Shown in pieces: positions 26,443-49,056 of a stretch of DNA of 64,000 nt. The DNA is from Clostridiales bacterium (GTDB taxonomy: Bacteria > Bacillota > Clostridia > Lachnospirales > Lachnospiraceae). The position numbers and the translations under genes were made by a program. The DNA is taken from positions 62,001 through 126,000 of the forward strand of contig JAMPHY010000006.1 in the NCBI GenBank assembly GCA_023663185.1, given 5' to 3'. A model generated the notes under the pieces. That model was not told where the DNA came from. It saw only the letters and a program-made list of their open reading frames with translations, and ran no database searches. Position 1 is the stretch's first letter; each line of letters starts with the position of its first letter.

Positions 26443-27399
26443 ATGTCCACTCTTAAAAACAAATCTTCCGCTTCTGCGGAAAAGAACAAAAAACAAACTC
26501 CAAATAAAACCCCAAAGAGGAAAAACGTTGACTGGCATAAAGCGACGTCATGCGCCCTACAGATTGATCTCCGGGGCTACAGCCACCTGCTGAAGTTTGA
26601 AAGCGAAAGCATCCTGAAAGACGGCGATTACAGGATTGACCTGCTCCTTGTCAAAAAAACCGCAGACGTGGCAATCCAAAAAAATATCGCCAAAATATTC
26701 AGCACCTTTAACCTCTTTGAAATCAAGGGTCTGGGCTCTTCCGTAAACACCGACTGCTATTACAAAACTATCGGCTATGCCGGATTCCTGATAGAGCAAC
26801 AGGGCAAGACCAACGAGTTTCTCAATACCGATATCAGTCTTTCATTTCCCTGTATACACTACCCCAGGGAGCTTATTAAGCATTTAACAAAAAGCAGAAA
26901 ATTAACTATTGAAAAATCTGCTCCTGGGGTGTATCATATCAATAAAGAAATTTTTAATGCACAGATTATCGTTATCCGTGAGCTTTCTCCCGATGACAGC
27001 CTATACCTGCGCTGCCTGACGAACAAGCTTACGGATACAGGGCTTATTAGAAGGCTTGCAGAAAACTACCAAGCCCACCATGAGCAAAACCCGGTTATCT
27101 ACACGCAGTATTTGAGCCAGTTAATCATAGCAAACAGCACAGAGAAAGGAGGCAACCCTATGGTTTGTGAAGAACTTCTCAATTTATATGGCACAAGTTC
27201 CGAGGAAATTACTGAAAAGGCAATGGCAAAGGCAGAGGCATATTACCAGCCGAAAATTGATGAATTGTCATCAGCTAATAATGCTCTTACTGCAGAAAAT
27301 GAGAAACAATCCTCAACTATTAATAATCTTTCTTCAACGATAAATTACCTGCAGAACCTCTTAATGCAACACAATATTCCATTCAATTTTGAGGCATAA
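26443..27399 (+). CDS. PD-(D/E)XK-like nuclease family protein with C-terminal coiled coil (intact copy 1)
   Basis: The 318-residue protein has a Lys-rich start (KTPKRKNVDWHKA) and a core with the pattern YRIDLLLVKK, then LFEIKG about 35 residues later. That gives the Asp...Glu-x-Lys arrangement of PD-(D/E)XK nucleases. Residues about 120-225 are conserved in the two decayed copies nearby. The C-terminal 60 residues (about 258-318) are a leucine/asparagine heptad coiled coil ending LLMQHNIPFNFEA. The family is reminiscent of Rpn-type putative transposase/nucleases and is often misannotated. It is one of the few plus-strand genes in this accessory region and is followed by a strong terminator. 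Confidence 0.7.
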   Translation: MSTLKNKSSASAEKNKKQTPNKTPKRKNVDWHKATSCALQIDLRGYSHLLKFESESILKDGDYRIDLLLVKKTADVAIQKNIAKIFSTFNLFEIKGLGSSVNTDCYYKTIGYAGFLIEQQGKTNEFLNTDISLSFPCIHYPRELIKHLTKSRKLTIEKSAPGVYHINKEIFNAQIIVIRELSPDDSLYLRCLTNKLTDTGLIRRLAENYQAHHEQNPVIYTQYLSQLIIANSTEKGGNPMVCEELLNLYGTSSEEITEKAMAKAEAYYQPKIDELSSANNALTAENEKQSSTINNLSSTINYLQNLLMQHNIPFNFEA

Positions 27400-27410
27400 T
27401 GGCATTTTAT

Positions 27411-27440
27411 AAGCCGTCCTTTTCGGGCGGCTTTCTTTAT
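27411..27440 (+). terminator. Rho-independent terminator of nuclease copy 1
   Basis: AAGCCGUCC pairs with GGGCGGCUU (9 bp including one G-U) around a UUUUC loop at 27411-27433, followed by a U-rich run UCUUUAUUU. It begins 11 bases after the stop codon. Confidence 0.88.
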
Positions 27441-27548
27441 TTAGTGACTCTATAATTCATCTGATAATTCTGATTTATCATTTATCCTTTCCCCATTTTC
27501 ATCTACACCTATTGCCAAACATAATGACTATATGCTTCATATACTCAG

Positions 27549-27593
27549 TTAAGTTTCCCTTTTCCATGTATTCACATCTTTTTTACTTATGAA
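27549..27593 (-). pseudogene. vanZ 3' end remnant (14 codons plus stop)
   Basis: The minus strand reads FISKKDVNTWKRET followed by a stop, identical to the C-terminus of the intact VanZ-family gene at 35938-36543. The rest of the gene is missing here, so this is a duplicated tail carried with the nuclease direct repeat. Confidence 0.8.
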
Positions 27594-27646
27594 TACAAGC
27601 ACCATATTCCACTGACTCCATTCGCTTGTTCCCCATTCAATTATCC

Positions 27647-29419
27647 TTATTGAAATTCTACTGTTAATGTATAATTACCGCATCCATCATATTGAGCTGC
27701 TTGAATAAAATAAGATTCCCCTGCTGAAAGAAAAACCTCCACACCTTCATTATTACCAAAGTTATAGCCCTCTTTAAGCTTCTCCCATCCGGAATTAAAA
27801 ACACCCAATCTAAAACTATTCCCCTCTGACACGTTTGAAAAGGTAAATATATAAGTTCCTTCCAACTTCGGTGTAAATGAATAATCATTTTTCTGATCTG
27901 TATATTGGATACTATCAGAGACCGCTCTGAAATCAGTAATATCAGCAGCAGCCTTCTTTTGCCCTATATTTAATGTGTATAACCCAAGCCCTCTATACTG
28001 CTCAACACATATATAATATGTTTCACCTGCTGTCAGCTGTTGCGTTAAGCCATCTCCATTGTCAAGGTTATAATCCGATTTTATTTTTTCCCATCCCGAA
28101 TTATAAATCCATAGCCTAAAATCCGTCCCATTTGGTACATTTGAAAATTCAAACCTATATGTTCCATCATTTCCTGCTACGTATGAATAGTTATTTATCT
28201 GCGCAGTATATTGTATACTATCGGAAACTGCTGTATAATTCGTTAAATCTACAATTTCTTTTTTAGGGCCTATATTCAATGTATATGTTCCAAGTCCCCT
28301 ATACTGCTCAACCCTTATATAATATAATTCACCCGCGTTCAAAGAAGCCGTTAGGCCATCCCCATTATCAAGATCATAGTCTGATTTTATCTTTTCCCAT
28401 CCCGAATTATAAATCCATAGCCTAAAATCCGTCCCATTTGGTACATTTGAAAATTCAAATCTATGTGTTCCACTATTTCCTGCTACATACGCATAGTCAT
28501 TTTCCTGGCTTGTATATTGGATACTATCTGAGACCGCCGTGAAACCAGTAATATCAACAATCACCTTCTTTTGCCCTATATTCAGTGTATATGGTCCAAG
28601 CCCCCTATACTGCTCAACCCTTATATAATATAATTCACCCGCGTTCAAAGAAGCCGTTAGGCCATCCCCATTATCAAGATCATAGTCTGATTTTATCTTT
28701 TCCCATCCCGAATTATAAATCCATAGCCTAAAATCCGTCCCATTTGGTACATTTGAAAATTCAAACCTATATGTTCCACTTACCAAAGGAACATATTCAT
28801 AGTCAATACTTTGCCCTTCACCAGAGACTTTCCCCGGCAGTACTATAATTTCATTGGGTTGGATTTCAGAAGGCACATCCTCTATTGCAATTGCAGTATA
28901 TGTATTAGGCATTATGGAATCTATTTTTAATATTCCTTCATCGATACCAGTTTCATTATTTTGCTCAATAGCCCCATCATCAATTTCTTCTCTTTCCCCT
29001 GGGCTCTCCCTATCACTTGAATCATCGGCGGCTCTGTCATTACTACTTAAGTCATTGGCGGCTCCATCATTACTACTTGAGTCATTGGCGGCTCCATCAT
29101 TACTACTTGAGTCATTGGCGGCTCCATCATTACTACTTGAGTCATTATCAGTTCTACCATTGCTGCTTGAATCATTGGCAGTTAAATCATCACTATTTGT
29201 TTTAACGCCTATAGCGCCTGTCAGGTTACTTTCTTGATTATCTTTACCATTCGCTTTACTAATAAATGAAGCAATTAAAAAGAAGAGAAAACATAATATT
29301 GAAAGAAGCAATAAAAATTGTTTTAAAGCTATTTTCACTTTTTCTTCAACATCAAAAACAAGTAATAAAATTGATGCAATAGCCGATATGGCACTTATAA
29401 TTGTCAACAAATTCATCAT
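27647..29419 (-). CDS. envelope protein with two N-terminal TMs, Ser/Asn repeat linker and four PPC-like domains
   Basis: The 590-residue protein begins with two hydrophobic helices (about 2-21 and 32-53). A low-complexity linker (about 60-150) is built from 10-residue units close to NDSSSNDGAA. Four beta-sandwich repeats of about 100 residues follow (about 180-590), each containing FEFSNVPNGTDFRLWIYNSG and ending YTLNIG. They resemble bacterial pre-peptidase C-terminal (PPC) domains. Repeats 1-3 are nearly identical even in DNA, indicating recent amplification; repeat 4 is divergent. No catalytic domain is present. It is likely an outward-facing membrane-anchored binding protein. A degenerate fragment of the last repeat occurs at 30372-30461. 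Confidence 0.72.
   Translation of the reverse strand: MMNLLTIISAISAIASILLLVFDVEEKVKIALKQFLLLLSILCFLFFLIASFISKANGKDNQESNLTGAIGVKTNSDDLTANDSSSNGRTDNDSSSNDGAANDSSSNDGAANDSSSNDGAANDLSSNDRAADDSSDRESPGEREEIDDGAIEQNNETGIDEGILKIDSIMPNTYTAIAIEDVPSEIQPNEIIVLPGKVSGEGQSIDYEYVPLVSGTYRFEFSNVPNGTDFRLWIYNSGWEKIKSDYDLDNGDGLTASLNAGELYYIRVEQYRGLGPYTLNIGQKKVIVDITGFTAVSDSIQYTSQENDYAYVAGNSGTHRFEFSNVPNGTDFRLWIYNSGWEKIKSDYDLDNGDGLTASLNAGELYYIRVEQYRGLGTYTLNIGPKKEIVDLTNYTAVSDSIQYTAQINNYSYVAGNDGTYRFEFSNVPNGTDFRLWIYNSGWEKIKSDYNLDNGDGLTQQLTAGETYYICVEQYRGLGLYTLNIGQKKAAADITDFRAVSDSIQYTDQKNDYSFTPKLEGTYIFTFSNVSEGNSFRLGVFNSGWEKLKEGYNFGNNEGVEVFLSAGESYFIQAAQYDGCGNYTLTVEFQ
29020..29190 (-). repeat. 30-bp tandem repeats in the envelope protein linker
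   Basis: About five copies of a 30-bp unit (10 residues, Asn-Asp-Ser-Ser-Ser type). The central three are essentially identical and the outer ones degenerate. Copy number is expected to vary by slippage without changing frame. Confidence 0.85.
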
Positions 29420-29646: not shown

Positions 29647-30207
29647 ATGCTCGCATTACCTAGGGAACTTGTTAAGCATTTAACAAAAAACAAAAAATTA
29701 ACTATTGAAAAATCAGTCCCTGGGGTGTATCATGTCAATAAAGAAATTTTTAATGCACAGATTATCGTTATACCTGAGCTTTCTCCTGATGACAGCCTGT
29801 ATCTTCACTGCCTGAGGGACAAGCTTACGGATGCAGGGCTTATTAAAAGGCTTGCAGAAGACTATTAAGCCCACCATGAGCAGAATCCGGTTATCTACAC
29901 GCAGTATTTGAGCCAGTTAATCATAGCAAACAGCACAGAGAAAGGAGGCAATCTCATGGTTTGCGAAGAACTTTTTAACTTATTTGGTACAAGTTCTGAT
30001 GAAGTCACTGAAAACGCAAAAAACGAGGCAATGAAAGAAGCAGATGCGTATTATCAGCCGAAGATTGATGAGCTGTCATTAGCTAATAATGAATTATCAT
30101 CAATCAACGATGCTCTTACTGCTGAAAACGAGCATCAATCTTCAATAATAAATTATCTGCAGAACCTCTTAACGCAGCATAACATTCCATTCCGTTTTGA
30201 AGCATAA
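29647..30207 (+). pseudogene. PD-(D/E)XK-like nuclease, truncated copy 2 with nonsense codon
   Basis: Homologous to residues from about 130 to the end of copy 1 (26443-27399). The whole N-terminal catalytic half is missing. The CAA codon of copy 1 (ENYQAHHEQ) is TAA at 29866-29868, splitting the frame. The tail resumes as MVCEELFNLFGTSSDEV and ends with a coiled coil of different length (LLTQHNIPFRFEA). A terminator follows. It is presumably non-functional. Confidence 0.85.
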
Positions 30208-30218
30208 GACCATATTTT

Positions 30219-30246
30219 AAGCCGCCCCTATTGGGGCGGCTTTTAG
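30219..30246 (+). terminator. Rho-independent terminator of nuclease copy 2
   Basis: AAGCCGCCCC pairs perfectly over 10 bp with GGGGCGGCUU around a 4-base loop (30219-30242), followed by a short U-run. It is at the same relative position as in copy 1 although the stem sequence differs. Confidence 0.85.
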
Positions 30247-30371
30247 TTCTATTTCCTCATTCCTTCACATTTCCATCTATCCTCTTTTACATTTTCTCGC
30301 GGATTTTTTATAAAAAGATTCGCCGGGGCTTTTCTATAAATAATTAGCCGAATTGCAAATGTATATCTCTC

Positions 30372-30575
30372 TCCACACTTTCATTATTACCAAAGTTATA
30401 GCCTTATTTAAACTTTTCCTGGCCGAAATTAAAAACACCTAATCTAAAACTATTTCCCTCTTACGGTCCCTGTTCTATCATTCTCTATTGCCTTTTCCAT
30501 ATATGTAATGGCATCGTTAAATTTTTCTTTACAATAATACATAATTCCATATGCATAATAAAGCTCAGAGAGAGC
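30372..30575 (-). pseudogene. fragments of a PPC repeat and a TPR motif
   Basis: Positions 30372-30461 match the minus-strand PPC repeat region at about 27738-27830 with scattered substitutions and no open frame. Immediately right, 30463-30575 on the minus strand reads LSELYYAYGIMYYCKEKFND then AITYMEKAIEND, a clear TPR-type motif without start or continuation. The 412-bp gap thus holds gene debris rather than a gene. Confidence 0.6.
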
Positions 30576-30619
30576 TTGTCAAGTGTGTTTGTAAACTTTT
30601 CATTGAAACATGGATTGCA

Positions 30620-31981
30620 TCATTTATTCAAATAAATGCTCCATAAATGCTTTAAAAGTAAATCTTCACCATCTAATATATGTTGAAATTCAGGATTTTT
30701 TATTTGCTGATAATTTACGGATGCACTTTTATCCCAATCCCAGAAGGAAATAAATGCAGGAACACAATTACCTGCTTCTGTCGCCCATTTTAAAGACTGT
30801 GCCGTAATTTCATATATTTGTGTATATGCATATTTTTCCTGTTTACCATATTTTAAAGAATTACAATCAAATGAAAAGGGTAATAAAAAAATATGAGTAA
30901 CGCTGCTAAAATAACTTTTAATGTGGTGATAACTATTTCCAGTAAAAATAGAATCGTCAACGATAATAACTGCCTGATAACCATCTTCTTCTGTTATATC
31001 CAAGTTTTCATTTATCATTTCTACTTTCGCAGGCATTTTTCCATAGAATTTTATATCATTTCGGTTTTGTGAGTATCGTATATTCATTACGGTAGCATGT
31101 ATATCCGATGGCAGTAAATATTTTAATATAATACCTGTATTCATTGCTCCAAAAGCATTGCTTAACAATAAAATTTTATTAAGCCTTTTTTGTGCACAAA
31201 GTGGCGCTAGCTTTAACAAGTAGGCAGCGTATATTAGACACAAGGAATCTCCTTCCCTTATTACACGAATAGCAGACTTCTCTATATCAAAATCCCATGA
31301 GGCTGTAATAAAATCTGTAAGAATTGTTGATTGAAATAATTTGCTATAATTAGACGATAATATATTAAAGCCATCCGTAAAATCGAATTTGAGTAATTTG
31401 GCTATAGCGTCTCCTATTATGTGCGTAAAGTGTTCAGTTTCATCTATAATTGCCAAAAATTTACTTCCCAATAGATTTAAATATTTTTTTTGATTTATAA
31501 ATTCAAACCATCGCAAGGTTGTTAAATCTGCAAATATATACTCTAATAACGATAAAATTCCAATCCAATTTTCAAACGTAATTTCTTTTTGTTTTAAAAA
31601 ACTAAAAGAATATGTGTATTTGTAGTTTGCCCATTTTTCCCCAAACTTTTTCCATAGTTCATTCGATGTATAGGATATTGAACTACTGTGCATCTGCGAA
31701 TCGCAACAATAATATTCGTATCCTCTCAGAAAAATCACATCTTCTTTTATTTCTGCCCTATATTTAAAAAAATCTTGAAGTTCATAATCCATATTTTCAT
31801 ATTGAACGATAGATAATAAAAACCCGCCAAATACATCTACGTTTTCTTTTATATAAAAACTCTCTTTTACACATAAGTGATTCTTTATTTGATAGTTCCA
31901 AGCTATAAAAAACTTGTCCTGAACATCTGCAATTGTTGTATAAATATTATCTATAAAACTATATAATGCACTCTTCGACAT
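30620..31981 (-). CDS. phosphoribosyltransferase-like protein with unknown N-terminal domain
   Basis: About 453 residues from the ATG at 31981 (MSKSALYSFIDN), chosen because GAGG lies 8 bases upstream. The C-terminal half (about 255-400) resembles a type I PRTase. ILLLSNAFGAMNTGIILKYL would be the first strand and loop, and AVIIVDDSIFTGNS is the PRPP-binding motif with two acidic residues followed by TGNS. The N-terminal 250 residues are unfamiliar, aromatic-rich and helical. It has its own extended -10 promoter. It lies downstream of the LysRS-like / two-TM / MazG genes on the same strand. Substrate unknown; a nucleotide or base derivative is inferred. Confidence 0.68.
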   Translation of the reverse strand: MSKSALYSFIDNIYTTIADVQDKFFIAWNYQIKNHLCVKESFYIKENVDVFGGFLLSIVQYENMDYELQDFFKYRAEIKEDVIFLRGYEYYCCDSQMHSSSISYTSNELWKKFGEKWANYKYTYSFSFLKQKEITFENWIGILSLLEYIFADLTTLRWFEFINQKKYLNLLGSKFLAIIDETEHFTHIIGDAIAKLLKFDFTDGFNILSSNYSKLFQSTILTDFITASWDFDIEKSAIRVIREGDSLCLIYAAYLLKLAPLCAQKRLNKILLLSNAFGAMNTGIILKYLLPSDIHATVMNIRYSQNRNDIKFYGKMPAKVEMINENLDITEEDGYQAVIIVDDSIFTGNSYHHIKSYFSSVTHIFLLPFSFDCNSLKYGKQEKYAYTQIYEITAQSLKWATEAGNCVPAFISFWDWDKSASVNYQQIKNPEFQHILDGEDLLLKHLWSIYLNK

Positions 31982-32056
31982 AGAATATACCTCACTATCA
32001 AATACTAAAATCACTATTTTTATCTCTTATTACTTTTTTCATTTTACTTTTTTTAA

Positions 32057-32065
32057 ATTATATCA
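32057..32065 (-). promoter_or_regulatory. extended -10 promoter upstream of the PRTase-like gene
   Basis: The minus strand reads TGATATAAT, an extended -10 box (TGnTATAAT), 75 bases upstream of the start at 31981. A weak -35 (TTTACC) lies 19 bases further upstream. Confidence 0.5.
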
Positions 32066-32117
32066 AAGTATTATTACAGCGGGTAAACCATTTCTTTGAA
32101 TTATTTTCATATTTTCT

Positions 32118-32288
32118 GTTTATATTAAGTTAGAATCAGGTTCAGCATCAATTTTGATTTCAGTCATAACTTGTGCAATTCACCCATTTTTACATTTAAA
32201 TATCTTTATTTTAAAATCAACAACGCCTTCATTCACTATTTTGATGAGTGGCATGGTACTTGTATGCCTCGTGAAGCGAGCGTGCAGA
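32118..32288 (-). pseudogene. possible gene remnant between MazG-like and PRTase-like genes
   Basis: The minus strand has a continuous frame, interrupted by one TGA, reading TSTMPLIKIVNEGVVDFKIK then CKNG, stop, IAQVMTEIKIDAEPDSNLI, stop. It has protein-like composition but no recognised homology and no ribosome binding site. It may be debris of a deleted gene or simply non-coding; nothing else is evident in this gap. Confidence 0.3.
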
Positions 32289-32303
32289 GTTGTTTCAAAG
32301 TTC

Positions 32304-32666
32304 TTAGCCTTTTTCATATTTATCAGAGTATTCTGAAAAAAAGTCTCTTTTCATATTTCTAATATGTTTGTCAATAAACGCCTTGGATAGCTCACAAGGT
32401 GTTATATGATAACGGCGCAGTATCTCAATATAATACATCAGCACATCACTCAATTCTTCCAAAAATGCTACACGCACATTTTCATTCTCCATAATTGCAT
32501 TATCACCTTTCTTTTTAATAATAGCAATTGTTTCTCCAAGTTCTTCAATTAACCAAAGAATATAATTACGTCCATATTTTGCCTCGATAGGTGACCACCT
32601 ATCTTTATTCTTTTCCCAAAGTTCTTGCTGCATTTTCATCATATCTGAAATTTTAAGGTCTTTCAA
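32304..32666 (-). CDS. MazG-like nucleotide pyrophosphohydrolase
   Basis: The 120-residue all-alpha protein shows the MazG/NTP-PPase metal-binding pattern: EELGE (near residue 40) and FLEELSDVLMY (near 70), i.e. ExxE and ExxD. The start is a TTG at 32666, supported by GGGAGG 8 bases upstream. Single-domain MazG proteins hydrolyse NTPs or dNTPs to monophosphates. Here it lies 33 bp downstream of the two-TM gene and is very likely in the same transcript. In this context it may remove a nucleotide intermediate or alarmone; this is inference. Confidence 0.78.
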   Translation of the reverse strand: MKDLKISDMMKMQQELWEKNKDRWSPIEAKYGRNYILWLIEELGETIAIIKKKGDNAIMENENVRVAFLEELSDVLMYYIEILRRYHITPCELSKAFIDKHIRNMKRDFFSEYSDKYEKG

Positions 32667-32699
32667 TCTATTGTCCTCCCGAAATTCTCCATATAAGAG

Positions 32700-33536
32700 T
32701 TAAATAAACTCCGAATATGGTAAAGCCATTTCCCAAATCGCTTCAAAATTTGATTTGTATTCTTTTATTAATGTGGCATTGATTACATTACTAGCTTTAA
32801 CATCTCTCATAATATTTTGATCTCTTTCAAAATAATCATTGGGATATTGAGTATTATCACTACATAACGTACACTCTAAATTATCAACCAAAATAATATT
32901 ACCGTGATATACTATGTTCATTTCTCTTAACTTTGAATAAAATATATATCGTACTTTAAATCCTATAATATCAGACGAATAATATTCTTCAATCTCTTTC
33001 AGTATTTTCTTTGTTTCCGAATCTTCAACATCTATTCTATCCAGAATAAATATTCTCTTTTTGCAAATTTTTTTATTTGCCAAATCCTTATAAATCAGAT
33101 TAATAGACTGCATAGGATTATATTTTGATTTATCATTTAGCCTAAATCTAAGCTTTATCAAACTATCTGCATAATAAGTGCAATATATTAACTTTTTTGC
33201 TTGTCTAATTAACCTTAGTTCTTCGGAAGTTATGTTATTTGCCTTCAACGTTCTCGTCCCTTGCTTCATTTGCTCTAGCAATTCCCTGGTATGTATCAAC
33301 TCCTTTTCTGCCAAAGATTTCCAATACTTATCGCCTATATTATATAGCGAATTATAAAACTCACTATATTCTCTCAAACAGTCTTTTATATATTCTCGCA
33401 TTCCAAGCATGGATAAATCTAATAAAATTGTAATAGAAATAATAAAGAAACAAAACTTAATATCTAAAAATAGTTCTATTATACTTATGATTCCGCCCAC
33501 AATAGCCACAGCTATTTCATATTTATATTTGCTCAT
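32700..33536 (-). CDS. two-TM protein with Rossmann/PLD-like cytoplasmic domain, unknown function
   Basis: About 278 residues from the ATG at 33536 (MSKYKYEIAVAIV); a TTG at 33548 is an alternative. Two hydrophobic helices (about 6-23 and 24-45) form a hairpin, then a helical stretch. An alpha/beta domain (about 115-278) has strands KLIYCTYYAD, KRIFILDRID, FKVRYIFYS, NIILVDN and a final NVINATLIKEY. The strand order resembles PLD-like sensor domains lacking the HKD catalytic motif. It overlaps the LysRS-like gene by 14 bp, so the two are translationally coupled. A membrane effector or sensor of the cassette is plausible. Confidence 0.6.
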   Translation of the reverse strand: MSKYKYEIAVAIVGGIISIIELFLDIKFCFFIISITILLDLSMLGMREYIKDCLREYSEFYNSLYNIGDKYWKSLAEKELIHTRELLEQMKQGTRTLKANNITSEELRLIRQAKKLIYCTYYADSLIKLRFRLNDKSKYNPMQSINLIYKDLANKKICKKRIFILDRIDVEDSETKKILKEIEEYYSSDIIGFKVRYIFYSKLREMNIVYHGNIILVDNLECTLCSDNTQYPNDYFERDQNIMRDVKASNVINATLIKEYKSNFEAIWEMALPYSEFI

Positions 33537-34575
33537 TGGTATTTGCAATCCTTTTTATTTCATCTAATTTATAATTTGTAAAAAACAGTTCTGGCTGCTC
33601 AAACCATTTCTCAATTTCATTCCATATATTTACTACTTGTTTATCAGTTAATAAATTAACATTTGTAAATGCATTTGCATATTCTACAGAGCTTATTTTT
33701 GATTTTGATATCTTACCTTCATTATCAATAATTAATGGTGAAAATAAAAAACTTGGCAATTCATCTATATTGAATTTTAATATGCCTTCGCAAAATATTC
33801 TCATAGGCCATAACCCCGACCAATCGTTTCCTAAAACTTGAACGCTTAAGTTATTATTTTTTTTATCCTTCATTATTAAGGAATAGCCTTTACAAAAATG
33901 TCTTAGAGGCACATTAAGGTCAATATATGTATCATTGTCAATAGAAACCAATTTAAAAAATTCACCATGCTTTGGACAAACACTTTTTACTTTGAATGTT
34001 GAATTATCAAATCCATAAATGTGAGTATGATTACACCCCTTTTCAATTAATCCACATTTTGGACATGCCACCCTCAAATGTATTTTATTGTTTTTAGGGT
34101 CAAACAACTTAGAAAAAAATTCGTAATGCCGAATAACTTCCATAACTGCTTCTCTCATTTCAGGCATTGACTGAATTTGTTCATAAGTGTATATCTCACT
34201 AGTACAATTTGATAACATTTCAATACGTTTTATCATATCCAAAAATGCCTTATAATTTTCGTTAAAATATTTATTATTAACAATTGAGCTTTTATAAAAA
34301 TATGTATCTGAGCCTATATCTACGGTATAGGAAACCGCTGTATCAGAAATGTTATCTAATAGTTCAATTTTAATGTATGTATCTTTCTTGTACAATTTTT
34401 TTAATTCTTGTGCAAGCTTAAAACCAATTAAAAAATTAATCAATGTTCCAATATGTGGTTTACCGCTTAAACGAGCAGCTAAAACAATGGTAAAAGAATC
34501 TTTTCCCTCCGCTTTATATTTAAAGATGTCCAACACGCTATTTACATAATGTGCTATTCCACTATAATATATCAT
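33523..34575 (-). CDS. class I lysyl-tRNA-synthetase-like catalytic domain protein
   Basis: About 350 residues from the ATG at 34575 (MIYYSGIAHYV), chosen because GAGGGG lies 7 bases upstream. It has the class I signatures: HIGH-type ARLSGKPHIGTLINF (near residue 42) and KMSKS-type GKISKSKISS (near residue 285). A Cys pair knuckle (CPKCG...CPKHG) and LGNDWSGLWPMR match the class I LysRS core, where WPxRW is characteristic. The large C-terminal anticodon-binding domain of genuine LysRS-I (over 500 residues) is absent. It probably activates an amino acid without normal tRNA recognition. It heads a coupled operon with the two-TM and MazG-like genes. Confidence 0.72.
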   Translation of the reverse strand: MIYYSGIAHYVNSVLDIFKYKAEGKDSFTIVLAARLSGKPHIGTLINFLIGFKLAQELKKLYKKDTYIKIELLDNISDTAVSYTVDIGSDTYFYKSSIVNNKYFNENYKAFLDMIKRIEMLSNCTSEIYTYEQIQSMPEMREAVMEVIRHYEFFSKLFDPKNNKIHLRVACPKCGLIEKGCNHTHIYGFDNSTFKVKSVCPKHGEFFKLVSIDNDTYIDLNVPLRHFCKGYSLIMKDKKNNNLSVQVLGNDWSGLWPMRIFCEGILKFNIDELPSFLFSPLIIDNEGKISKSKISSVEYANAFTNVNLLTDKQVVNIWNEIEKWFEQPELFFTNYKLDEIKRIANTNEQI

Positions 34576-34611
34576 ACTTAACCCCTCACTTATCTTCTTC
34601 ATGCTTCGCTT

Positions 34612-34677
34612 GCATGAAATATAATCCTTGAATTTTAAAATCTGTACATAATATTGTGCTCTCACCTTTGTTAAATG
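34612..34677 (-). pseudogene. acyltransferase C-terminal remnant
   Basis: The minus strand reads HLTKVRAQYYVQILKFKDYI, matching HLTQAGAQYYAKILNFEDIF at the end of the acyltransferase-SGNH gene (24234-26008), and the DNA is also similar over about 65 bp. Only the tail is left, directly upstream of the LysRS-like gene. It marks a recombination or insertion boundary. Confidence 0.75.
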
Positions 34678-34732
34678 GACTAATAAAATCTCGCGTTTTC
34701 AATAAATCAAGAGTATTTTTTGTATATTGATT

Positions 34733-35071
34733 TCACGGATATTTTAGCAAGATATCCACCATTTCCATTAATATCCTATAATTTTTCGGCGGAAGCGTCT
34801 TTATTTTACCATCAATTGATATATCGCCAATTGCCAACCTACTGCCTTCTTCAATTTCTATTCCAATAAAAAAACTTGAGAGCGGTATTTGTAATCCCTT
34901 GCAGAGCATAAACAGCGTATACAAAGCAGGCATTGTATCTCCTCTTAAAATACTGTAAAGATTGGATGTGCTGACAGATGCTGCCTTCGCTAAATCTGAT
35001 GTCTTCATGTTGCTGTTTTTAATCAACTGCAATAGCCGCTTTGCAATCTGTTTGTTGATTTCATCTTGCAT
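34733..35071 (-). CDS. XRE-family HTH transcriptional regulator
   Basis: The 112-residue protein has an N-terminal helix-turn-helix (about 8-65; MKTSDLAKAASVSTSNLYSILRG) and a short C-terminal region (ILMEMVDILLKYP). AAGGAG lies 10 bases before the ATG. It precedes the LysRS-like cassette on the same strand, but an acyltransferase remnant lies between them. It is therefore uncertain that it belongs to the cassette. A perfect ACTTAAGT palindrome lies about 45 bases upstream (near 35116) and could be its operator. Confidence 0.85.
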   Translation of the reverse strand: MQDEINKQIAKRLLQLIKNSNMKTSDLAKAASVSTSNLYSILRGDTMPALYTLFMLCKGLQIPLSSFFIGIEIEEGSRLAIGDISIDGKIKTLPPKNYRILMEMVDILLKYP

Positions 35072-35141
35072 GATAATCGCTCCTTTTCATCTGGTTTGTG
35101 TTATGGTTTGCTACAACTTAAGTGCATTTTTATACTACATA

Positions 35142-35789
35142 ATCAAGGGGCTAGGTTCTTCCGCAAACACTAACTGCTATTACAAAACCATCGGCTATGC
35201 CGGGTTCCTGATAGAGCAGAATGGCAAGGCCAATGAGTTCATCAATACCGATGTCAGCCTTTCATTTCCCTGTATGCACTACCCCAGGGAGCTTATAAAG
35301 CATCTAACAAAAAGCAGAAAATTAACTATTGAAAAATCTGCTTCTGGGGTGTATCATATCAATAAAGAAGTCTTTAATGCACAGATTATCGTTATACCTG
35401 AGCTTTCTCCTGATGACAGCCTGTATCTTCACTGCCTGAGGGACAAGCTTACGGATGCAGGGCTTATTAAAAGGCTTGCAGAAGACTACCAAGCCCACCA
35501 TGAGCAGAACCCGGTTATCTACACGCAGTATTTGAGCCAGTTAATCATAGCAAACAGTACAAAGAAAGGAGGCAATCCTATGGTTTGCGAAGAACTCTTT
35601 AACTTATTCGGCACAAGTTCCGAGGAGGTCACTGAAAATGCTACAAAAAAGGCAATGGCAAAGGCAGATGCGCATTATCAGCCAAAGATTGATGAGCTGT
35701 CATCAGCCATTAATACCCTATCTTCAAAGATAGATTATCTGCAGAACCTCTTAATCCAGCATAACATTCCATTCAGTTTTGAGTCATAA
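35142..35789 (+). pseudogene. PD-(D/E)XK-like nuclease, 5'-truncated copy 3
   Basis: Homology to copy 1 begins at IKGLGSSANTNCYYKTIGYAG, immediately after the Glu of the ExK motif, so the N-terminal domain with the catalytic Asp is missing. The remaining frame is open to the end (LLIQHNIPFSFES). Its coiled coil is shorter than in copy 1. An open frame extends upstream to 34962 but is only antisense to the HTH gene. It is presumably inactive. Confidence 0.85.
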
Positions 35790-35800
35790 TGGCATTTTAT

Positions 35801-35828
35801 AAGCCGTCCTTTTCGGGCGGCTCTCTTT
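35801..35828 (+). terminator. Rho-independent terminator of nuclease copy 3
   Basis: The same hairpin as copy 1: AAGCCGUCC with GGGCGGCU at 35801-35822, then a U-rich tail CUCUUUAUUU. One base change at the stem foot shortens it. Confidence 0.8.
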
Positions 35829-35937
35829 ATTTATTGACTCTATAATTCATCCGATATTCTGATTTATCATCTATCCTTTCCCCATTCTCATCTACACCTA
35901 TTGTCATACATAATGACTACATGCTTCATATACTCAG

Positions 35938-36543
35938 TCAAGTTTCTCTTTTCCATGTATTCACATCTTTTTTACTTATGAATCCAAACAATATTTTTTT
36001 GATTCCTTTACATATCATAAATCCAATCAACGTGCCAAATACATTGTTCATAATATCATCTGTCTCAAACTTACCGCGTAATGTATAAAGCTGTATGCAC
36101 TCAATAGATAGGCTAAAAAGAAATCCAGCAAGCAGCGACCAGCCAATTTTACGAAAAGGTCTCCACAAAATATAAAGCAAAATTCCCAATGGAATCATCA
36201 AAAGAATATTTTCTATCCATAACGTCAGATGCCAAAGACTTGTTCCCCATGTTGTAAAGGGAACCAGTCTTATAGTATATGCCATTTCTTCACTCCTAGA
36301 AAAAACAGTTATTCCCAAAACCATATAACAGTAAAAACCCAACAAACCAATAAATGGCAGCTTAATGCATGAATAGCAAATCATCTTTAAAGCTACACGA
36401 CGATATACTAACTTGAATATAATAATGCTATAATAAAGCAAGACAAATCCTGCTCCAACAATAGCAGAATCTTTAAAATAATCTTTCCAATATACCCCAC
36501 AATCGTTAAGTATTGTCTCATATACTATCTTTATATTATACAT
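35938..36543 (-). CDS. VanZ-family membrane protein
   Basis: The 201-residue protein has about five hydrophobic helices. The VanZ signatures are LVPFTTWG, ENILLMIPLGILLYIL, LSIECIQLYTLRGKFETDDIMNNVFGTLIGF. VanZ-like proteins confer low-level teicoplanin tolerance in some enterococci, but most homologues have unknown envelope roles. It lies 39 bp downstream of a frameshifted acyltransferase in the polysaccharide locus. Its last codons are duplicated at 27549. Confidence 0.9.
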   Translation of the reverse strand: MYNIKIVYETILNDCGVYWKDYFKDSAIVGAGFVLLYYSIIIFKLVYRRVALKMICYSCIKLPFIGLLGFYCYMVLGITVFSRSEEMAYTIRLVPFTTWGTSLWHLTLWIENILLMIPLGILLYILWRPFRKIGWSLLAGFLFSLSIECIQLYTLRGKFETDDIMNNVFGTLIGFMICKGIKKILFGFISKKDVNTWKRET

Positions 36544-39939: not shown

Positions 39940-40704
39940 TTATATAGTTGTTCTTAAATAAAATTTACTGCTTCCACACTCGATATACGCTGGCTCATAT
40001 CCTGGAAAATCAAATGCTCTTACAGTTCTCATAATAATATCTTGTGAATCAGACAAGTTTATTTTTTTATATCTTCCTATGCTCTTCAAGTCAAAATAAT
40101 GATGTTCATATCCTTTATCCAGCAATTCTTTTTGTGCAATAAACTCCGTTATTTCCCCGTTTAATATTGGCAGTATAATTTCTATCATATTTTCATATAA
40201 TACCTTCTGCGTTTTTTGAAACACTGTATATCCTGTATCATCGTTTTCAATTTGAAATTCACACCTTCTTATGATATCCCCTGTATCTATCCCCTCGTCT
40301 ATCCAATGAAGTGTACCTCCACCTATTTTTGAATTAAAAAGGACGGAATAGTTACATGAATATGAACCTGCAAACTCTGGTAGTAACCCACCATGCATAT
40401 TTATAATTCCTTTTTTAAAAATGTCTATTTCCGTTTTCTTTATAATCTTATTATATCTACAACATAACCCTAAATCTAAACTCTTCTTTGAATAATTTGC
40501 CTTAAAATCATCATATGAATATAAGAGTATATTATTTGCCTTGCAATAATCTCCTAGCATTGGTATATCTTCCCACGGATCATTATTATGCGCCTTGGGA
40601 TTAGAACTGACACAGGCAATCAATTCTAATGAACTTTCCTCTTTTATCCACATACATACCTTCGTAGCTATTGGCAAATCCCCAAATACAACTATTTTTT
40701 TCAT
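39940..40704 (-). CDS. formyltransferase (sugar N-formyltransferase-like)
   Basis: The 254-residue protein has the formyl-transferase fold of Fmt/ArnA-N. The catalytic set is INMHGGLLPEFAG (Asn-x-His) with the Asp in WIDEGIDTGDII. It lacks the C-terminal domain of methionyl-tRNA formyltransferase, so a small-molecule target is likely: an amino sugar made by the nearby DegT aminotransferase, formylated with N10-formyl-THF. It starts 3 bp after the ATP-grasp stop, whose GGGGGG run serves as its ribosome binding site. It is tightly coupled in the polysaccharide operon. Confidence 0.85.
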   Translation of the reverse strand: MKKIVVFGDLPIATKVCMWIKEESSLELIACVSSNPKAHNNDPWEDIPMLGDYCKANNILLYSYDDFKANYSKKSLDLGLCCRYNKIIKKTEIDIFKKGIINMHGGLLPEFAGSYSCNYSVLFNSKIGGGTLHWIDEGIDTGDIIRRCEFQIENDDTGYTVFQKTQKVLYENMIEIILPILNGEITEFIAQKELLDKGYEHHYFDLKSIGRYKKINLSDSQDIIMRTVRAFDFPGYEPAYIECGSSKFYLRTTI

Positions 40705-40707
40705 TCT

Positions 40708-41724
40708 TTACCCCCCTAGTATTTTTACCATAGATATATCTTTCTGCCCTATAACACCTATCTTTGCTTCTAATAAATTTCTATCCACATCGTTCCCATT
40801 TAGCCATTGAATTATTGCTCTAGGCAAATCTACTCCTGCTATATGGCTAAACGGATACCCACCGCCAAATCTTGCATTCATTTCTAAAACGTAAACCTTA
40901 TCATCACTAACGAACATATCCACATCCATATTACCAATGTGTTTTGTCAATACCGCTAATCTCTCTGCTGTTTCCCTAATCGCAGGATTTTCAACTATTT
41001 TCGCGCAGTCAGTTTCGCCTGAACGCATACTTATCTTTTTTCGTATAACTGTGCTCCGATAACTGCCGTTCAAATCATTAATAATGTCAATTCCATATTC
41101 CTGCCCATTTATTTTCTGCTGAATGATAACACATTTTTCAACATCAGCCTCTGATTCATATTTAAGATATGAATCGAAAATTCCACGTTTAGCCTTCTTA
41201 AATAGAACATTCAATTCTTCTTCGTTTTCAGCTTCATACATATCAATAGAACCCATTCCCCATCTCGGCTTTATAACCATGGGAAAGCATACTAACTTGT
41301 TTTGTAAAGCATCAAGGACTGCCTGTAAATCATAGAACGTCTGCGGTACATAAAAACCATTTTTTTCCAAAAACTGGTATGTCAGCCATTTATCATTGCA
41401 AATTTCTACAATTTCCATATCTGAAACGATAAGCCTTACTCCGATCTCATCAAATCTCTCACGACTTCTTGCTAAAACAGGAATATCTATGTCAAATAAC
41501 GGAATAATAACATTTATCTTCTCATTCTTGCAATACTCCAAAAGAAACGAAATATATTTATCACTATAAATTATTGGAGTGCAGACCGCTTTATCTGCTG
41601 CTTCCATGGCAGAAGAATATATTGAGCTGTTAGCAGCGTGAACTGTCCCCGTATCCCCCAATACATCCTTAAAATATTTTACTAGATAGCTCCTTCTTCC
41701 CGCAGATGTAAGCAAAATATTCAT
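40708..41724 (-). CDS. ATP-grasp carboxylate-amine ligase-like protein
   Basis: The 338-residue protein has the N-terminal start MNILLTSAGRRSYLVKYF, as in carbamoyl-phosphate-synthase-like ATP-grasp proteins. The ATP-grasp core (about 110-300) contains PMVIKPRWGMGSIDM, the Lys/Glu region QQKINGQEYGIDII and the metal-binding VLEMNARFGGGYPF. Members in surface-polysaccharide loci ligate amino acids or other carboxylates to amino sugars. Its neighbours (DegT aminotransferase upstream, formyltransferase downstream) support sugar decoration. The substrate is not known. Confidence 0.85.
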   Translation of the reverse strand: MNILLTSAGRRSYLVKYFKDVLGDTGTVHAANSSIYSSAMEAADKAVCTPIIYSDKYISFLLEYCKNEKINVIIPLFDIDIPVLARSRERFDEIGVRLIVSDMEIVEICNDKWLTYQFLEKNGFYVPQTFYDLQAVLDALQNKLVCFPMVIKPRWGMGSIDMYEAENEEELNVLFKKAKRGIFDSYLKYESEADVEKCVIIQQKINGQEYGIDIINDLNGSYRSTVIRKKISMRSGETDCAKIVENPAIRETAERLAVLTKHIGNMDVDMFVSDDKVYVLEMNARFGGGYPFSHIAGVDLPRAIIQWLNGNDVDRNLLEAKIGVIGQKDISMVKILGG

Positions 41725-41800
41725 TTCATTCTCCCTTTATTCCAAAACTTCTATGTTTTTACCGCATTGCTATTTCTTCATCACATATGAAGCGCATATT

Positions 41801-42916
41801 TTAATAATTGCATCTGCACTCCAGTATTATCTCGCATATCCTATCTACGTCTTCCATTGAAAGATCCGCATACATCGGGAGTGTCAGTACCCTCTTGCTT
41901 ATATGCAGTGCCGCAGGCGTAAGGTTTGCATTATATCTTCCATGATAACAATCGTATGTATTTGCCAGCGGATAAAAATATTTTCTGGCTCCGATTCCAT
42001 TCTCCGCTAACTTCTCAAACACTTCGTTACGGCTTGTTCCAAACTTCTTCTCGTCAAATATAACTGGGAAATATGCAAAATTATGTTTTACACCTTCCTG
42101 TGTAGGATTTAATGTAATTCCCTCCACTCTTTCCAGATGGCTAAAATATCTTTCTGAAACGAGTTTCCTCTTTTCAATCTCGCCATCCACATGCCTTAAG
42201 TTGCATAGCCCCATCGCGGCGCAGAATTCATTCATCTTGGCGTTTGCTCCCACGCCATCCACTATCTCCGGACCTCGTATCCCGAAATTCTTTAACCGAT
42301 ATAAGTTTCTTCCAAAATCTTCATCACTGAAGCATACCGCTCCGCCTTCAATCGTATTGAACACCTTTGTTGCATGGAAACTGAAGCACGATGCATCACC
42401 GAATGCGCCAACACCTTCCCCTTCATATGTCTCCCCGAAGGCATGCGCGGCATCATATATAACCTTTAACTCATATTTCCTGGCTATTCTTTCGATTTCT
42501 TTGACATTGCAGATATTCCCGTATACATGCACAGGCACAATGGCGCATGTCCGGTCTGTAATTAGTGCTTCTATCTTGCTGATGTCTATTGTGAAGTCAT
42601 CCGGATTTATATCACAGAATACTGGTTCCAACCCGTTACGCACAATGGCATGAGTCGTTGATGCAAATGTAAACGGTGTAGTGATAACTTCTCCGTGCAG
42701 ATTCATTGCCTGCATAGCAAGCTCTAATGCCATGTGCCCGTTTGTTAAAAGATCAATGTTGGGGACATTAAGGTATTCCTTCAATTCCCTCTGCAGTTCT
42801 TTATGCTTGGTGCCCATATTGGTTAGCCAATGGGTTTCCCAGAGTTCTTCTATCTCTTCCATGTATTCATCAATTGATGGCATGGATGAACGTGTAACAA
42901 GTATTTTGTTTGGCAT
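41801..42916 (-). CDS. DegT/DnrJ/EryC1/StrS sugar aminotransferase
   Basis: The 371-residue PLP enzyme aminates a nucleotide-linked keto sugar. Motifs: TTPFTFASTTHAI, VPVHVYGN, VIYDAAHAFGETYEG and the PLP-lysine segment CFSFHATKVFNTIEGGAV, then NFGIRGPE and NAKMNEFCAAMG. The length and blocks resemble FdtB/QdtB/VioA-type aminotransferases. The dehydratase making its keto substrate is not in the window. It is the first gene of the aminotransferase / ATP-grasp / formyltransferase / FkbM / PLP run and follows the flippase gene by 38 bp. Confidence 0.92.
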   Translation of the reverse strand: MPNKILVTRSSMPSIDEYMEEIEELWETHWLTNMGTKHKELQRELKEYLNVPNIDLLTNGHMALELAMQAMNLHGEVITTPFTFASTTHAIVRNGLEPVFCDINPDDFTIDISKIEALITDRTCAIVPVHVYGNICNVKEIERIARKYELKVIYDAAHAFGETYEGEGVGAFGDASCFSFHATKVFNTIEGGAVCFSDEDFGRNLYRLKNFGIRGPEIVDGVGANAKMNEFCAAMGLCNLRHVDGEIEKRKLVSERYFSHLERVEGITLNPTQEGVKHNFAYFPVIFDEKKFGTSRNEVFEKLAENGIGARKYFYPLANTYDCYHGRYNANLTPAALHISKRVLTLPMYADLSMEDVDRICEIILECRCNY

Positions 42917-42954
42917 AATTACTCCTTTGCATTACATCTATTTACTATTGCATT

Positions 42955-44400
42955 TTAAGCTTTATTTTTTGTCCTACGAAATGCTTTTAAAATATCTATA
43001 AGATATAAAAATGAATCTAATTTAAATAAAGCCGAACCCACGATGTAGATTACTGCCCCCAACACAACTTGAATCATAAGTGTAATCAGAACAGGCAACC
43101 CTGCTAATGATACACACCACACTACTGCTCCCATTCCAACCGCCAACAATATACACGGCATGATATCTTTCAACTGTTCCATATATCCATAGTTTAACAA
43201 TTTCCTATTCGGCCAACTGTTTATGACCTGGCTTATTATGCTACTTGCAAGCATGCTGTATGCCATGGCCATCGGGCCAAACCACATAGTTGAAATCAGC
43301 AGCACCAGTCCAGCACATTTTTTAATTACTTCCAACTTTAAGAATAGGTCGCTCCGTCCCATTGCCTTAATCGCATTCAGGTTTGCCGTGTGAATCGGAT
43401 GGAACATAAAGGAAATGCAGAAAATCCTTAAGTACGGTACACATGGTAGCCACTTCGACGTTAAAACCAGTCCTACCGCGAAGTCCGCAGTTGCCACCAA
43501 CCCCATCATTAAAGGCGCCATAACATACACACTCACATTAATCGCCCTTCTTGTCATGTCTTTCACATTCTGACGGTTGTCCTGAACACTTGACATTACT
43601 GGAAACAGAACGCTATCAATGGCACTATTGACATTAGATACAACAAAATTGGGGAACTGTCTTCCCCTATTGTAATAAGCCAGATCCGCCGATGAATACA
43701 TTTTACCAATAATTAACTGTCTGATATTGTTATAGCCCTTATCAAGCAACGTTGAAATCAACAGTTTCCATCCATACGAAAATAATTTCTTTAATCGTTG
43801 AACCGAAAAAACGTTATGAGGACGCCATTTAACCGTAATCCACAAAATAACCGTATCAATTATTACGTTAATTACATGCTGCACAACCAATGCCCAAACA
43901 CCATATCCTAGCATTGCCATTGCAATTCCCACACACGCTGCTGTAACCGTTCCGCCAAGCGTGGCAAAGAAAAATTTCCTAAACATCATATTTTTGGATA
44001 CATATGCTTGCTGTATATTTTTGACTCCAGACACAATAATGGTAATTCCAAGCACACGGATTAATGCAGATAAAGAAGAATCCCCATAAAACCGCGCAAT
44101 TAATGGTGCACATAGAAAAAGGAGTACATAAAGTACTCCACAAAACATTACATTTGTGTAAAATACCGTAGAAAAATCCAAATCATCTGCATCTTTTTTT
44201 TGTATCAGTGCATTCCCCAGTCCACTGTCCACGAATACCTGTAGGATAGTCGCAAAAACCGTAATCAAAGCAACAACGCCATAATCTTCTGGTTGCAGCA
44301 TCCTTGCAAGAACGATTGATACAACAAAGGAAACCAGTTGTGCGCCACTACGCTCAGCAAAACGCCAAAATAAATTTGTTAAAACATTATGTTTCTCCAT
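42955..44400 (-). CDS. Wzx-type polysaccharide flippase (MOP superfamily)
   Basis: About 481 residues from the ATG at 44400 (MEKHNVLTNLFWRF), with GGAG six bases upstream. There are twelve to fourteen hydrophobic helices. The start FAERSGAQLVSFVVSIVLARMLQPEDYG is characteristic of the polysaccharide-transporter/MOP family. It flips lipid-linked repeat units across the cytoplasmic membrane for Wzy-dependent polymerisation. It lies between glycosyltransferases and the sugar-modification genes. Confidence 0.92.
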   Translation of the reverse strand: MEKHNVLTNLFWRFAERSGAQLVSFVVSIVLARMLQPEDYGVVALITVFATILQVFVDSGLGNALIQKKDADDLDFSTVFYTNVMFCGVLYVLLFLCAPLIARFYGDSSLSALIRVLGITIIVSGVKNIQQAYVSKNMMFRKFFFATLGGTVTAACVGIAMAMLGYGVWALVVQHVINVIIDTVILWITVKWRPHNVFSVQRLKKLFSYGWKLLISTLLDKGYNNIRQLIIGKMYSSADLAYYNRGRQFPNFVVSNVNSAIDSVLFPVMSSVQDNRQNVKDMTRRAINVSVYVMAPLMMGLVATADFAVGLVLTSKWLPCVPYLRIFCISFMFHPIHTANLNAIKAMGRSDLFLKLEVIKKCAGLVLLISTMWFGPMAMAYSMLASSIISQVINSWPNRKLLNYGYMEQLKDIMPCILLAVGMGAVVWCVSLAGLPVLITLMIQVVLGAVIYIVGSALFKLDSFLYLIDILKAFRRTKNKA

Positions 44401-44441
44401 CACATCTCCACGTTGTAATTTATAATCCTTATATGCCATTT

Positions 44442-45485: not shown

Positions 45486-45532
45486 AATTGCATTCCTTTC
45501 CAAACAATATTAATCAAAACATATATACGTAT

Positions 45533-46777: not shown

Positions 46778-46852
46778 ATATAAAAAGAATCTCCTAGACG
46801 GATTATACAGAATTTACGATTACCAAAATAATATATATTCCAACTTCTATAA

Positions 46853-47833: not shown

Positions 47834-47909
47834 ATTATAATTTCGTTCCTTTCAAAGTTTTTATAGCATATTATCATATTGTCAAAATTATTTTTCCAAC
47901 AAATAACCA

Positions 47910-48953: not shown

Positions 48954-49056
48954 TTTAACCTTCTTCTCCTTGTTACATTCAGCAAGCATATATGTATGCT
49001 TAACATATATTCTATCTATATTGTGCTCCTACTGAATTCTCTTTTTCGCTTAAAGA

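Follow-up and report, generated by a model that had tools for sequence, protein, structure and literature searches.

A sparse plasmid and phage family of class I LysRS-like proteins without an anticodon-binding domain, seen in a Lachnospiraceae gene cassette: possible ligases acting on a nucleotide-derived acceptor

The genes described here lie in a 64,000-nucleotide stretch (the window; positions 62,001 to 126,000 of contig JAMPHY010000006.1, GenBank assembly GCA_023663185.1) from a Clostridiales bacterium of the Lachnospiraceae, part of a 3.83-Mb assembly with a completeness of 94.8%. Between 30620 and 35071 runs a series of five genes, all on the minus strand. In their own reading direction they encode an XRE/HTH_3 regulator of 112 residues (34733..35071), the first gene before the cassette; a 350-residue protein resembling a stand-alone class I lysyl-tRNA synthetase (LysRS-I), which is the core of the finding (33523..34575, start codon ATG at 34575); a membrane protein of 278 residues, with a hydrophobic N-terminal stretch and a soluble part (32700..33536, or from an alternative start at 33548); a MazG-like pyrophosphohydrolase of 120 residues (32304..32666); and, after a gap, a 453-residue protein reminiscent of phosphoribosyltransferases (PRTases; 30620..31981). 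The start of the membrane protein gene overlaps the stop of the LysRS-like gene. This layout confirms that given in a preliminary description of the locus, with coupled genes at 34575-32304, the XRE gene before them and the PRTase-like gene after. The G+C content of 30620-35071 is 29.5%, compared with 37.3% for the window, and no tRNA genes were found in the window. We argue below that the LysRS-like protein, with a probability of roughly 0.45, passes an activated amino acid to a nucleotide-derived small molecule rather than to an ordinary tRNA.

The two signature motifs of class I synthetases that were first noticed in the protein are indeed present. HIGH-like GKPHIGT occupies residues 38-44 (34444..34464, minus strand) and KMSKS-like KISKS residues 288-292 (33700..33714, minus strand), both in columns largely invariant across eight aligned family members, which share 20-28% identity with the window protein. 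Invariant in all eight are PHxGT (P40, H41, G43 and T44), CPxC...C..HG, R225, G249, D251, K288, K291 and S292. The cysteines and the histidine-glycine pair form part of a zinc-ribbon-like insert, C171-x2-C174 ... C200-x2-H203-G204 (33964..34065, minus strand), invariant in the aligned members and common to the host LysRS-I. The preliminary description also read the WPMR block of class I LysRS at residues 256-259 (GNDWSGLWPMRIF), an assignment that has to be given up. The position is not kept in the family, falling directly after G249 and D251 where the relatives differ, and the true WPMR block (KIDWPMRW in the host) aligns instead with NVPLRHF, with only the P and R kept in the window protein. 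Judged from the alignment, the WPMR first noticed resembles that block by chance.

Of 25 copies (21 distinct sequences), 24 (20 distinct) keep PHxGT intact. That HIGH and KMSKS are kept across very divergent copies argues that amino-acid activation has very probably been retained. The residue six positions before the PHxGT histidine, which we take to contact lysine, is S in two true LysRS-I sequences and, in the LysRS-like copies, Q in 23 of 24 and R in the other; this suggests that the amino-acid pocket is changed. It also holds, as first proposed, that there is no room for an anticodon-binding domain, the protein having 350 residues against 670 for the class I LysRS of the host. Together with the changed residue, the missing domain argues for a change in either the amino acid or the acceptor. 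Separately, the copy in Streptomyces NBC_00723 (L011:4542-6299) lacks its 5' part, including the HIGH block, while an ASCH part (see below) is still in frame.

Domain databases give a sparse picture of the protein. Against Pfam tRNA-synt_1f (PF01921) it scores 18.2 bits and a Macrococcus copy 21.9 bits, both below the cut-off of 27; it matched no synthetase family in NCBIfam, and a phmmer search of the PDB returned no synthetase at E<=1. The phage protein family phrog_35625, labelled 'tRNA synthetase', matches residues 28-300 at 6.6e-17. Our own family profile gives about 453 bits for the window protein, which is itself in that profile. A structure was predicted with AlphaFold2 (AF2) from the window protein and nine viral-contig relatives, giving pLDDT 77.2 and pTM 0.81, with low confidence in regions that include residues 76-88 and 292-300. 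The Foldseek comparison suggested in the preliminary description, run on this predicted fold, has class I LysRS (1irx) as its best PDB match, at E 4.4e-9. GluRS, ArgRS, GluQ-RS (4a91, 1nzj), GlnRS and MetRS follow within the top 50, with the non-synthetase BshC (4wbd) at rank 41. Profile comparison with hhalign aligns columns 18-234 to the host LysRS-I at E 7e-6 and a probability of 84.5%.

The host has an intact 670-residue class I LysRS on another contig (378.5 bits), only 15% identical to the window protein, and a decayed host LysRS was rejected as an explanation on these grounds. The decayed LysRS that the preliminary description had allowed for as its own undoing does not agree, either, with an open frame of 350 residues and intact motifs. 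In a midpoint-rooted tree of 23 rows (21 LysRS-like proteins and two true LysRS-I) the two true enzymes stand apart at a fork with 100/100 support and a branch of 8.4; the window protein forms a long branch (3.75), so that its place within the group is unsure. A broader version of the same idea would see the locus as cargo that is neutral or has decayed, with a degenerate piece of LysRS among chance neighbours. Decayed nuclease copies do surround the cassette, its four-gene set was not found at 24 other loci, and the NBC_00723 copy has lost its HIGH block, but the open frame, the intact motifs, the family-wide conservation and the intact, distant host enzyme make such an origin highly improbable.

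In the host assembly, 94.8% complete, no class II LysRS reached the family cut-off of 427.6 bits (best score 132), and class I LysRS appears to be the only kind that the host uses. Of the 60 family genomes searched, two had a full-length LysRS-I. By eye, the host LysRS-I (L032:1501-3513, on contig C52; the window is on C51) carries a C-terminal MetG-like tRNA-binding extension.

Relatives of the LysRS-like protein are few and mobile. Searches with tblastn matched 12 of 72,556 plasmid records (seven from Streptomyces, two from Macrococcus/Macrococcoides and one each from Pantoea, Prauserella and Amycolatopsis) and three of 50,697 phage records (two of Picard and one of Mojorita). With the Pantoea and Macrococcus proteins as queries, each search recovered these 12 plasmid records again, the queries' own among them. 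Ten loci came from one pattern scan of viral contigs, Picard being identical to one of the ten, and the other scans of these contigs, with the window LysRS-like protein, a window and Pantoea alignment, and the Pantoea and Macrococcus queries, gave no true relative. Among related genomes only the window's own contains the gene (one of 397 in the family, 391 in the class and 398 in the phylum, the samples overlapping); the sole locus from a pattern scan of genome contigs was false, chromosomal relatives being poorly sampled. E. coli genomes searched with the Pantoea gene as a DNA query gave no match. Leaving out the duplicate Picard record (H15), we analysed 24 of the 25 hits, representing 20 distinct sequences. 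On the evidence of these comparisons the window protein belongs to a sparse plasmid and phage family, and the mobility proposed at the outset is borne out.

Six loci from the pattern scans, five from one scan and one from another, were rejected as false. Two (L024, L026) encode, by eye, repeated CPKHGEF-type zinc-ribbon proteins and a third (L028) a zinc-ribbon stretch within a laccase-like frame; L023, L025 and L027 were dropped for short partial matches similar to these.

The most consistent partner of the LysRS-like gene is found in what we call actinobacterial-type loci, that is, the named actinobacterial plasmids and phages and the viral contigs that lie among them in the tree. With a profile built from four ASCH proteins, whose loci are included in the count, an ASCH domain was found directly downstream in 21 of 21 such loci (17 distinct LysRS-like sequences). 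It begins 7-31 bases after the LysRS-like domain and in six of the 21 shares one open frame with it. Two of these partners were passed by Pfam, at 40.8 and 42.6 bits (cut-off 21.2). The gene directly upstream encodes an AAA_28-type protein at five loci (Pfam was run on three), and in two phages a serine integrase gene adjoins the locus. No ASCH partner was detected at the window, at the Pantoea locus or at the two Macrococcus loci. A protein encoded downstream of a Macrococcus copy (P0007) was considered as a candidate ASCH protein by eye and rejected: it has no match in Pfam or NCBIfam, and hhalign gives a probability of 0.2% to ASCH. The amidohydrolase YqfB uses the triad Lys21/Thr24/Glu74 (PMC6972931), and a YqfB-like (N4-acylcytidine) hydrolase role for the ASCH partners was likewise rejected, six aligned members having KxxE in place of KxxT at positions compared by eye.

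This linkage is an argument for an RNA-modifying ligase of the GluQ-RS type, which would join an amino acid to a base in tRNA or in another RNA, with the PUA-like ASCH domain replacing the anticodon-binding domain as RNA reader in the actinobacterial and phage copies. GluQ-RS, which also does without an anticodon-binding domain, is in the Foldseek top 50, and some LysRS-like copies are basic, with isoelectric points (pI) of up to 9.5. PMC7641849 describes PUA and ASCH domains as in general associated with translation and able to bind RNA. Several copies are nevertheless acidic (pI 5.5-6.6), ASCH-fused ones among them; ASCH is missing from the search results at the window, Pantoea and Macrococcus loci; and an RNA acceptor would not account for the exporter genes found next to two kinds of copies. 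Such a ligase seems somewhat unlikely for the family.

Those exporters belong to sets of genes that look like pathways. On the Pantoea plasmid pJZ29-01 (L004:6255-10035) a methyltransferase, the LysRS-like protein, a LOG/TIGR00730 protein, an EamA exporter and a Ham1 pyrophosphatase are encoded on the same strand, each gene either abutting the next or sharing 4 bases with it; in the plant-associated Pantoea sp. JZ29 a cytokinin-like or nucleoside product is possible. Two closely related Macrococcus plasmids have a pair of abutting ATP-grasp genes, the LysRS-like gene and a gene for a 137-residue protein; divergent from them run genes for an MFS transporter and a regulator of the Rgg type (the protein families were checked on one plasmid of the pair). 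The pathway-like character of both sets, their exporters and the pyrophosphatase theme of Ham1 and MazG favour a small nucleotide-derived acceptor. To this extent the nucleotide-handling theme of the preliminary description stands, with nucleotide-related neighbours in the window (MazG) and in Pantoea (Ham1).

The exporters at the Macrococcus and Pantoea loci could also be taken as signs of self-protection or detoxification, in which the LysRS-like protein would consume a toxic amino acid or an aminoacyl-nucleotide analogue. The patchy, mobile and regulator-linked distribution resembles that of resistance genes, and synthetase duplicates are listed as resistance factors, namely IleRS2, SerRS2 and TrpRS1, in Table 1 of PMC9437257. 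Those duplicates, however, are listed there under auxiliary functions and read as still tRNA-charging, while a protein without an anticodon-binding domain could not simply replace LysRS; moreover, the Pantoea neighbours look biosynthetic. We therefore regard a protective role as very unlikely.

The window combines the LysRS-like gene with partners of its own. Relatives of the membrane, MazG-like, PRTase-like and XRE proteins were sought by blastp among six-frame open stretches of at least 40 residues at the 24 relative loci, and none was found at E<=0.1. A recurrent four-gene system, as the preliminary description had envisaged with its LysRS-like, two-transmembrane, MazG and PRTase proteins, is accordingly rejected as far as searched. 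The lack of conserved linkage that would speak against a system was thus found, within the loci searched, for the four-gene set and does not extend to the LysRS-like gene, with its strong link to ASCH.

Of the window partners, the XRE protein passes Pfam HTH_3 as expected (26.0 bits, cut-off 23) and is probably the cassette regulator; among PADLOC models it matches HTH_VI at 2.4e-8, with weaker matches to RmrA, mad1 and PDC-M64C. In the membrane protein, hydrophobic 19-residue windows start at residues 4-30, enough for the two transmembrane helices originally described. It had no relatives or domain in any search made, the sole match being its own genome, and an AF2 model from the single sequence was uninformative (pLDDT 35.1). 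The MazG assignment holds, although Pfam MazG was barely passed (23.1 bits, cut-off 22). The protein also matches the nucleotide pyrophosphohydrolase family phrog_12184 at 5.7e-6 and by eye has an EExxE...ExxD type motif, which we take to be that of MazG; among plasmids a single record matched, at E 0.9.

These partners, and the mobile carriers that include the two phages with an adjoining integrase gene, bring to mind anti-phage or stress signalling, in which an aminoacylated nucleotide signal would act on a membrane effector and MazG would limit the signal. The overlap of the membrane protein gene with the LysRS-like gene is suggestive here, as is a PycTM gene (Pycsar-effector family) carried by two Streptomyces plasmids, where its end lies 324 bases upstream of the LysRS-like gene. 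PycTM is, however, present at only two of 24 loci, with identical sequences and so in one lineage. None of the LysRS-like, membrane, MazG and PRTase proteins hits a PADLOC model (E<=1), and the membrane protein, without recognisable domain or relatives, has no counterpart at the other LysRS-like loci. A signalling function is in our judgement distinctly unlikely.

The PRTase-like gene may simply lie next to the cassette without belonging to it. Its assignment stands in part: no Pfam family, Pribosyltran included, matches at E<=10, whereas a loop VIIVDDSIFTG is present, its acidic DD...TG presumably being the motif of the phosphoribosyl pyrophosphate (PRPP) loop. Translation from ATG 31981 is more likely than from 32014, judging by eye from the ribosome-binding site, which leaves a gap of 322 bases after the MazG gene. 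The promoter of its own proposed for this gene could not be upheld: 42 promoter-like sites occur in 30000-35400 compared with 32.2 +/- 4.7 in shuffled sequences, one of them in the gap (32128-32100, scoring 9/12), and the promoter and terminator scan decides nothing on membership. The doubt comes from the gap, from a different context elsewhere and from the absence of relatives at the other LysRS-like loci. No relative was found in phages or viral contigs, and only its own genome matched among 200 family and 196 class genomes. The sole homologue found is on a Streptomyces plasmid (91% coverage, 21.5% identity, E 3e-8) and has VVHVDDSVFTG at the motif. This plasmid, of Streptomyces sp. NBC_01462 (L029:6682-15714), encodes beside the homologue a DegT aminotransferase, a large methyltransferase, a HAD protein and a HisA/HisF-like protein, with two phosphoribosyltransferase-type proteins in the cluster, of which one passes the Pfam cut-off and the other falls short of it. 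The cluster looks nucleotide-like biosynthetic; the plasmid is outside the LysRS-like hit list, and no LysRS-like gene is annotated in the stretch shown.

Repeat comparison shows that the decayed nuclease copies first reported around the cassette are real. The element, Rpn/YhgA-like by eye, has a more complete copy at 26721..27608 (plus strand), the repeat partner of two decayed ones. The first of these, on the PRTase side (29659..30274, plus strand), is the reference copy of repeat family D1 and is 63% and 72% identical to the more complete copy (families D4 and D8); the second, on the XRE side (35141..35997, plus strand), matches the reference copies at 80-93%. The cassette sits between the two decayed copies, and recombination between element copies may have carried it in. 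Copies of the element also flank a gene (27647-29419) for a 590-residue protein with N-terminal hydrophobic segments, an internal repeat of about 306 bases, present as many as four times, and an array of 30-base repeats rich in Ser, Asn and Asp; part of this gene occurs again at 30371-30464. Further along, 39940-49000 resembles a surface-polysaccharide cluster, with ATP-grasp, a DegT-type aminotransferase, a flippase and glycosyltransferases, all assigned by eye.

Taken together, these observations can be accommodated by the following scheme. The LysRS-like protein would be a stand-alone amino-acid-activating ligase derived from class I LysRS, which would bind ATP and an amino acid, its specificity probably shifted from lysine, and form the aminoacyl-adenylate. 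The aminoacyl group would then pass to an acceptor other than the 3' end of tRNA, likeliest an amine on a small molecule of nucleotide or nucleoside origin. In the window, the task of MazG would be to trim the nucleotide or clean it up, and the membrane protein would act as exporter, receiver or anchor of the product, with the XRE gene controlling the cassette. In other lineages the neighbours would make, trim or export the product molecule: ATP-grasp and MFS proteins in one; methyltransferase, LOG phosphoribohydrolase, EamA and Ham1 in another; and ASCH with AAA_28 in a third.

Several points weigh against this scheme. By sequence alone the link to LysRS is weak, and it is carried by fold and profile comparison: tRNA-synt_1f gave no match at E<=0.1 for the Pantoea, one Streptomyces and the Picard proteins, and the best synthetase for the family profile among PDB sequences was a Glu-tRNA ligase at E 0.54. 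The Foldseek match to 1irx has a TM-score of 0.57 (on the query) and a root-mean-square deviation of 6.3, the AF2 model is poor just past KISKS (residues 292-300), and the hhalign alignment, ending at column 234, does not take in the KMSKS part. The long branch of the window protein may mean that it has diverged in function. Partners differ between branches, and small-molecule contexts are few: one Pantoea locus, two related Macrococcus plasmids and the window. Domains of the ASCH/PUA type are usually binders of nucleic acid, which in the actinobacterial branch speaks for RNA as the acceptor. Finally, the ASCH residues do not fit YqfB, an ASCH enzyme with described small-molecule chemistry (PMC6972931).

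Comparison with known enzymes helps to place the family. With class I LysRS (PF01921, 1irx) it shares the predicted class I catalytic fold, the HIGH/KMSKS-type signatures, the zinc-type CxxC...CxxHG insert and the conserved R of the WPMR block; it differs in being mobile, in falling below the Pfam cut-off, in lacking the anticodon-binding domain, in its KxSKS-type motif where the host has KMSGS, and in Q or R for S at position -6. GluQ-RS (YadB), likewise a catalytic domain on its own, derives from GluRS and has other partners. PoxA/EpmA is a LysRS paralogue which lacks a tRNA-reading domain but has the class II LysRS fold, and it acts on EF-P; by analogy the family in the window would be its class I counterpart. 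The copies in the Streptomyces phages Picard and Mojorita are of the same family (phrog_35625 matches the Picard protein at 2.3e-269), although there ASCH follows in place of the membrane and MazG-like proteins.

MshC, the mycothiol ligase, is a class I synthetase paralogue that joins an amino acid to a small molecule, but is derived from CysRS and found in another gene context; with SbzA it is among the paralogues acting on small molecules in Table 1 of PMC9437257. The LysRS paralogues listed in that review are LysU, PoxA and LysX, none of them named there as derived from class I LysRS. A literature search over titles and the beginnings of abstracts, with few subscription journals, found no publication on the mobile LysRS-like family. 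The family is already named 'tRNA synthetase', by phage annotators and in PHROGs, and is otherwise uncharacterised within the searches made. A more specific proposal, that it is a class I equivalent of PoxA and MshC making an aminoacylated nucleotide or nucleoside which, in the window, the membrane protein senses or exports, we consider doubtful.

Were that proposal true, a host with only class I LysRS could resist a product that targets the common class II LysRS, an idea resting on one genome, 94.8% complete. Paralogues of aminoacyl-tRNA synthetases are a known source of new chemistry, as mycothiol, EF-P lysylation and glutamyl-queuosine illustrate. A plasmid and phage family with, in one branch, a strictly linked ASCH domain would amount to a compact and testable enzyme system, from which a new modified nucleotide, RNA modification or antimicrobial might come.

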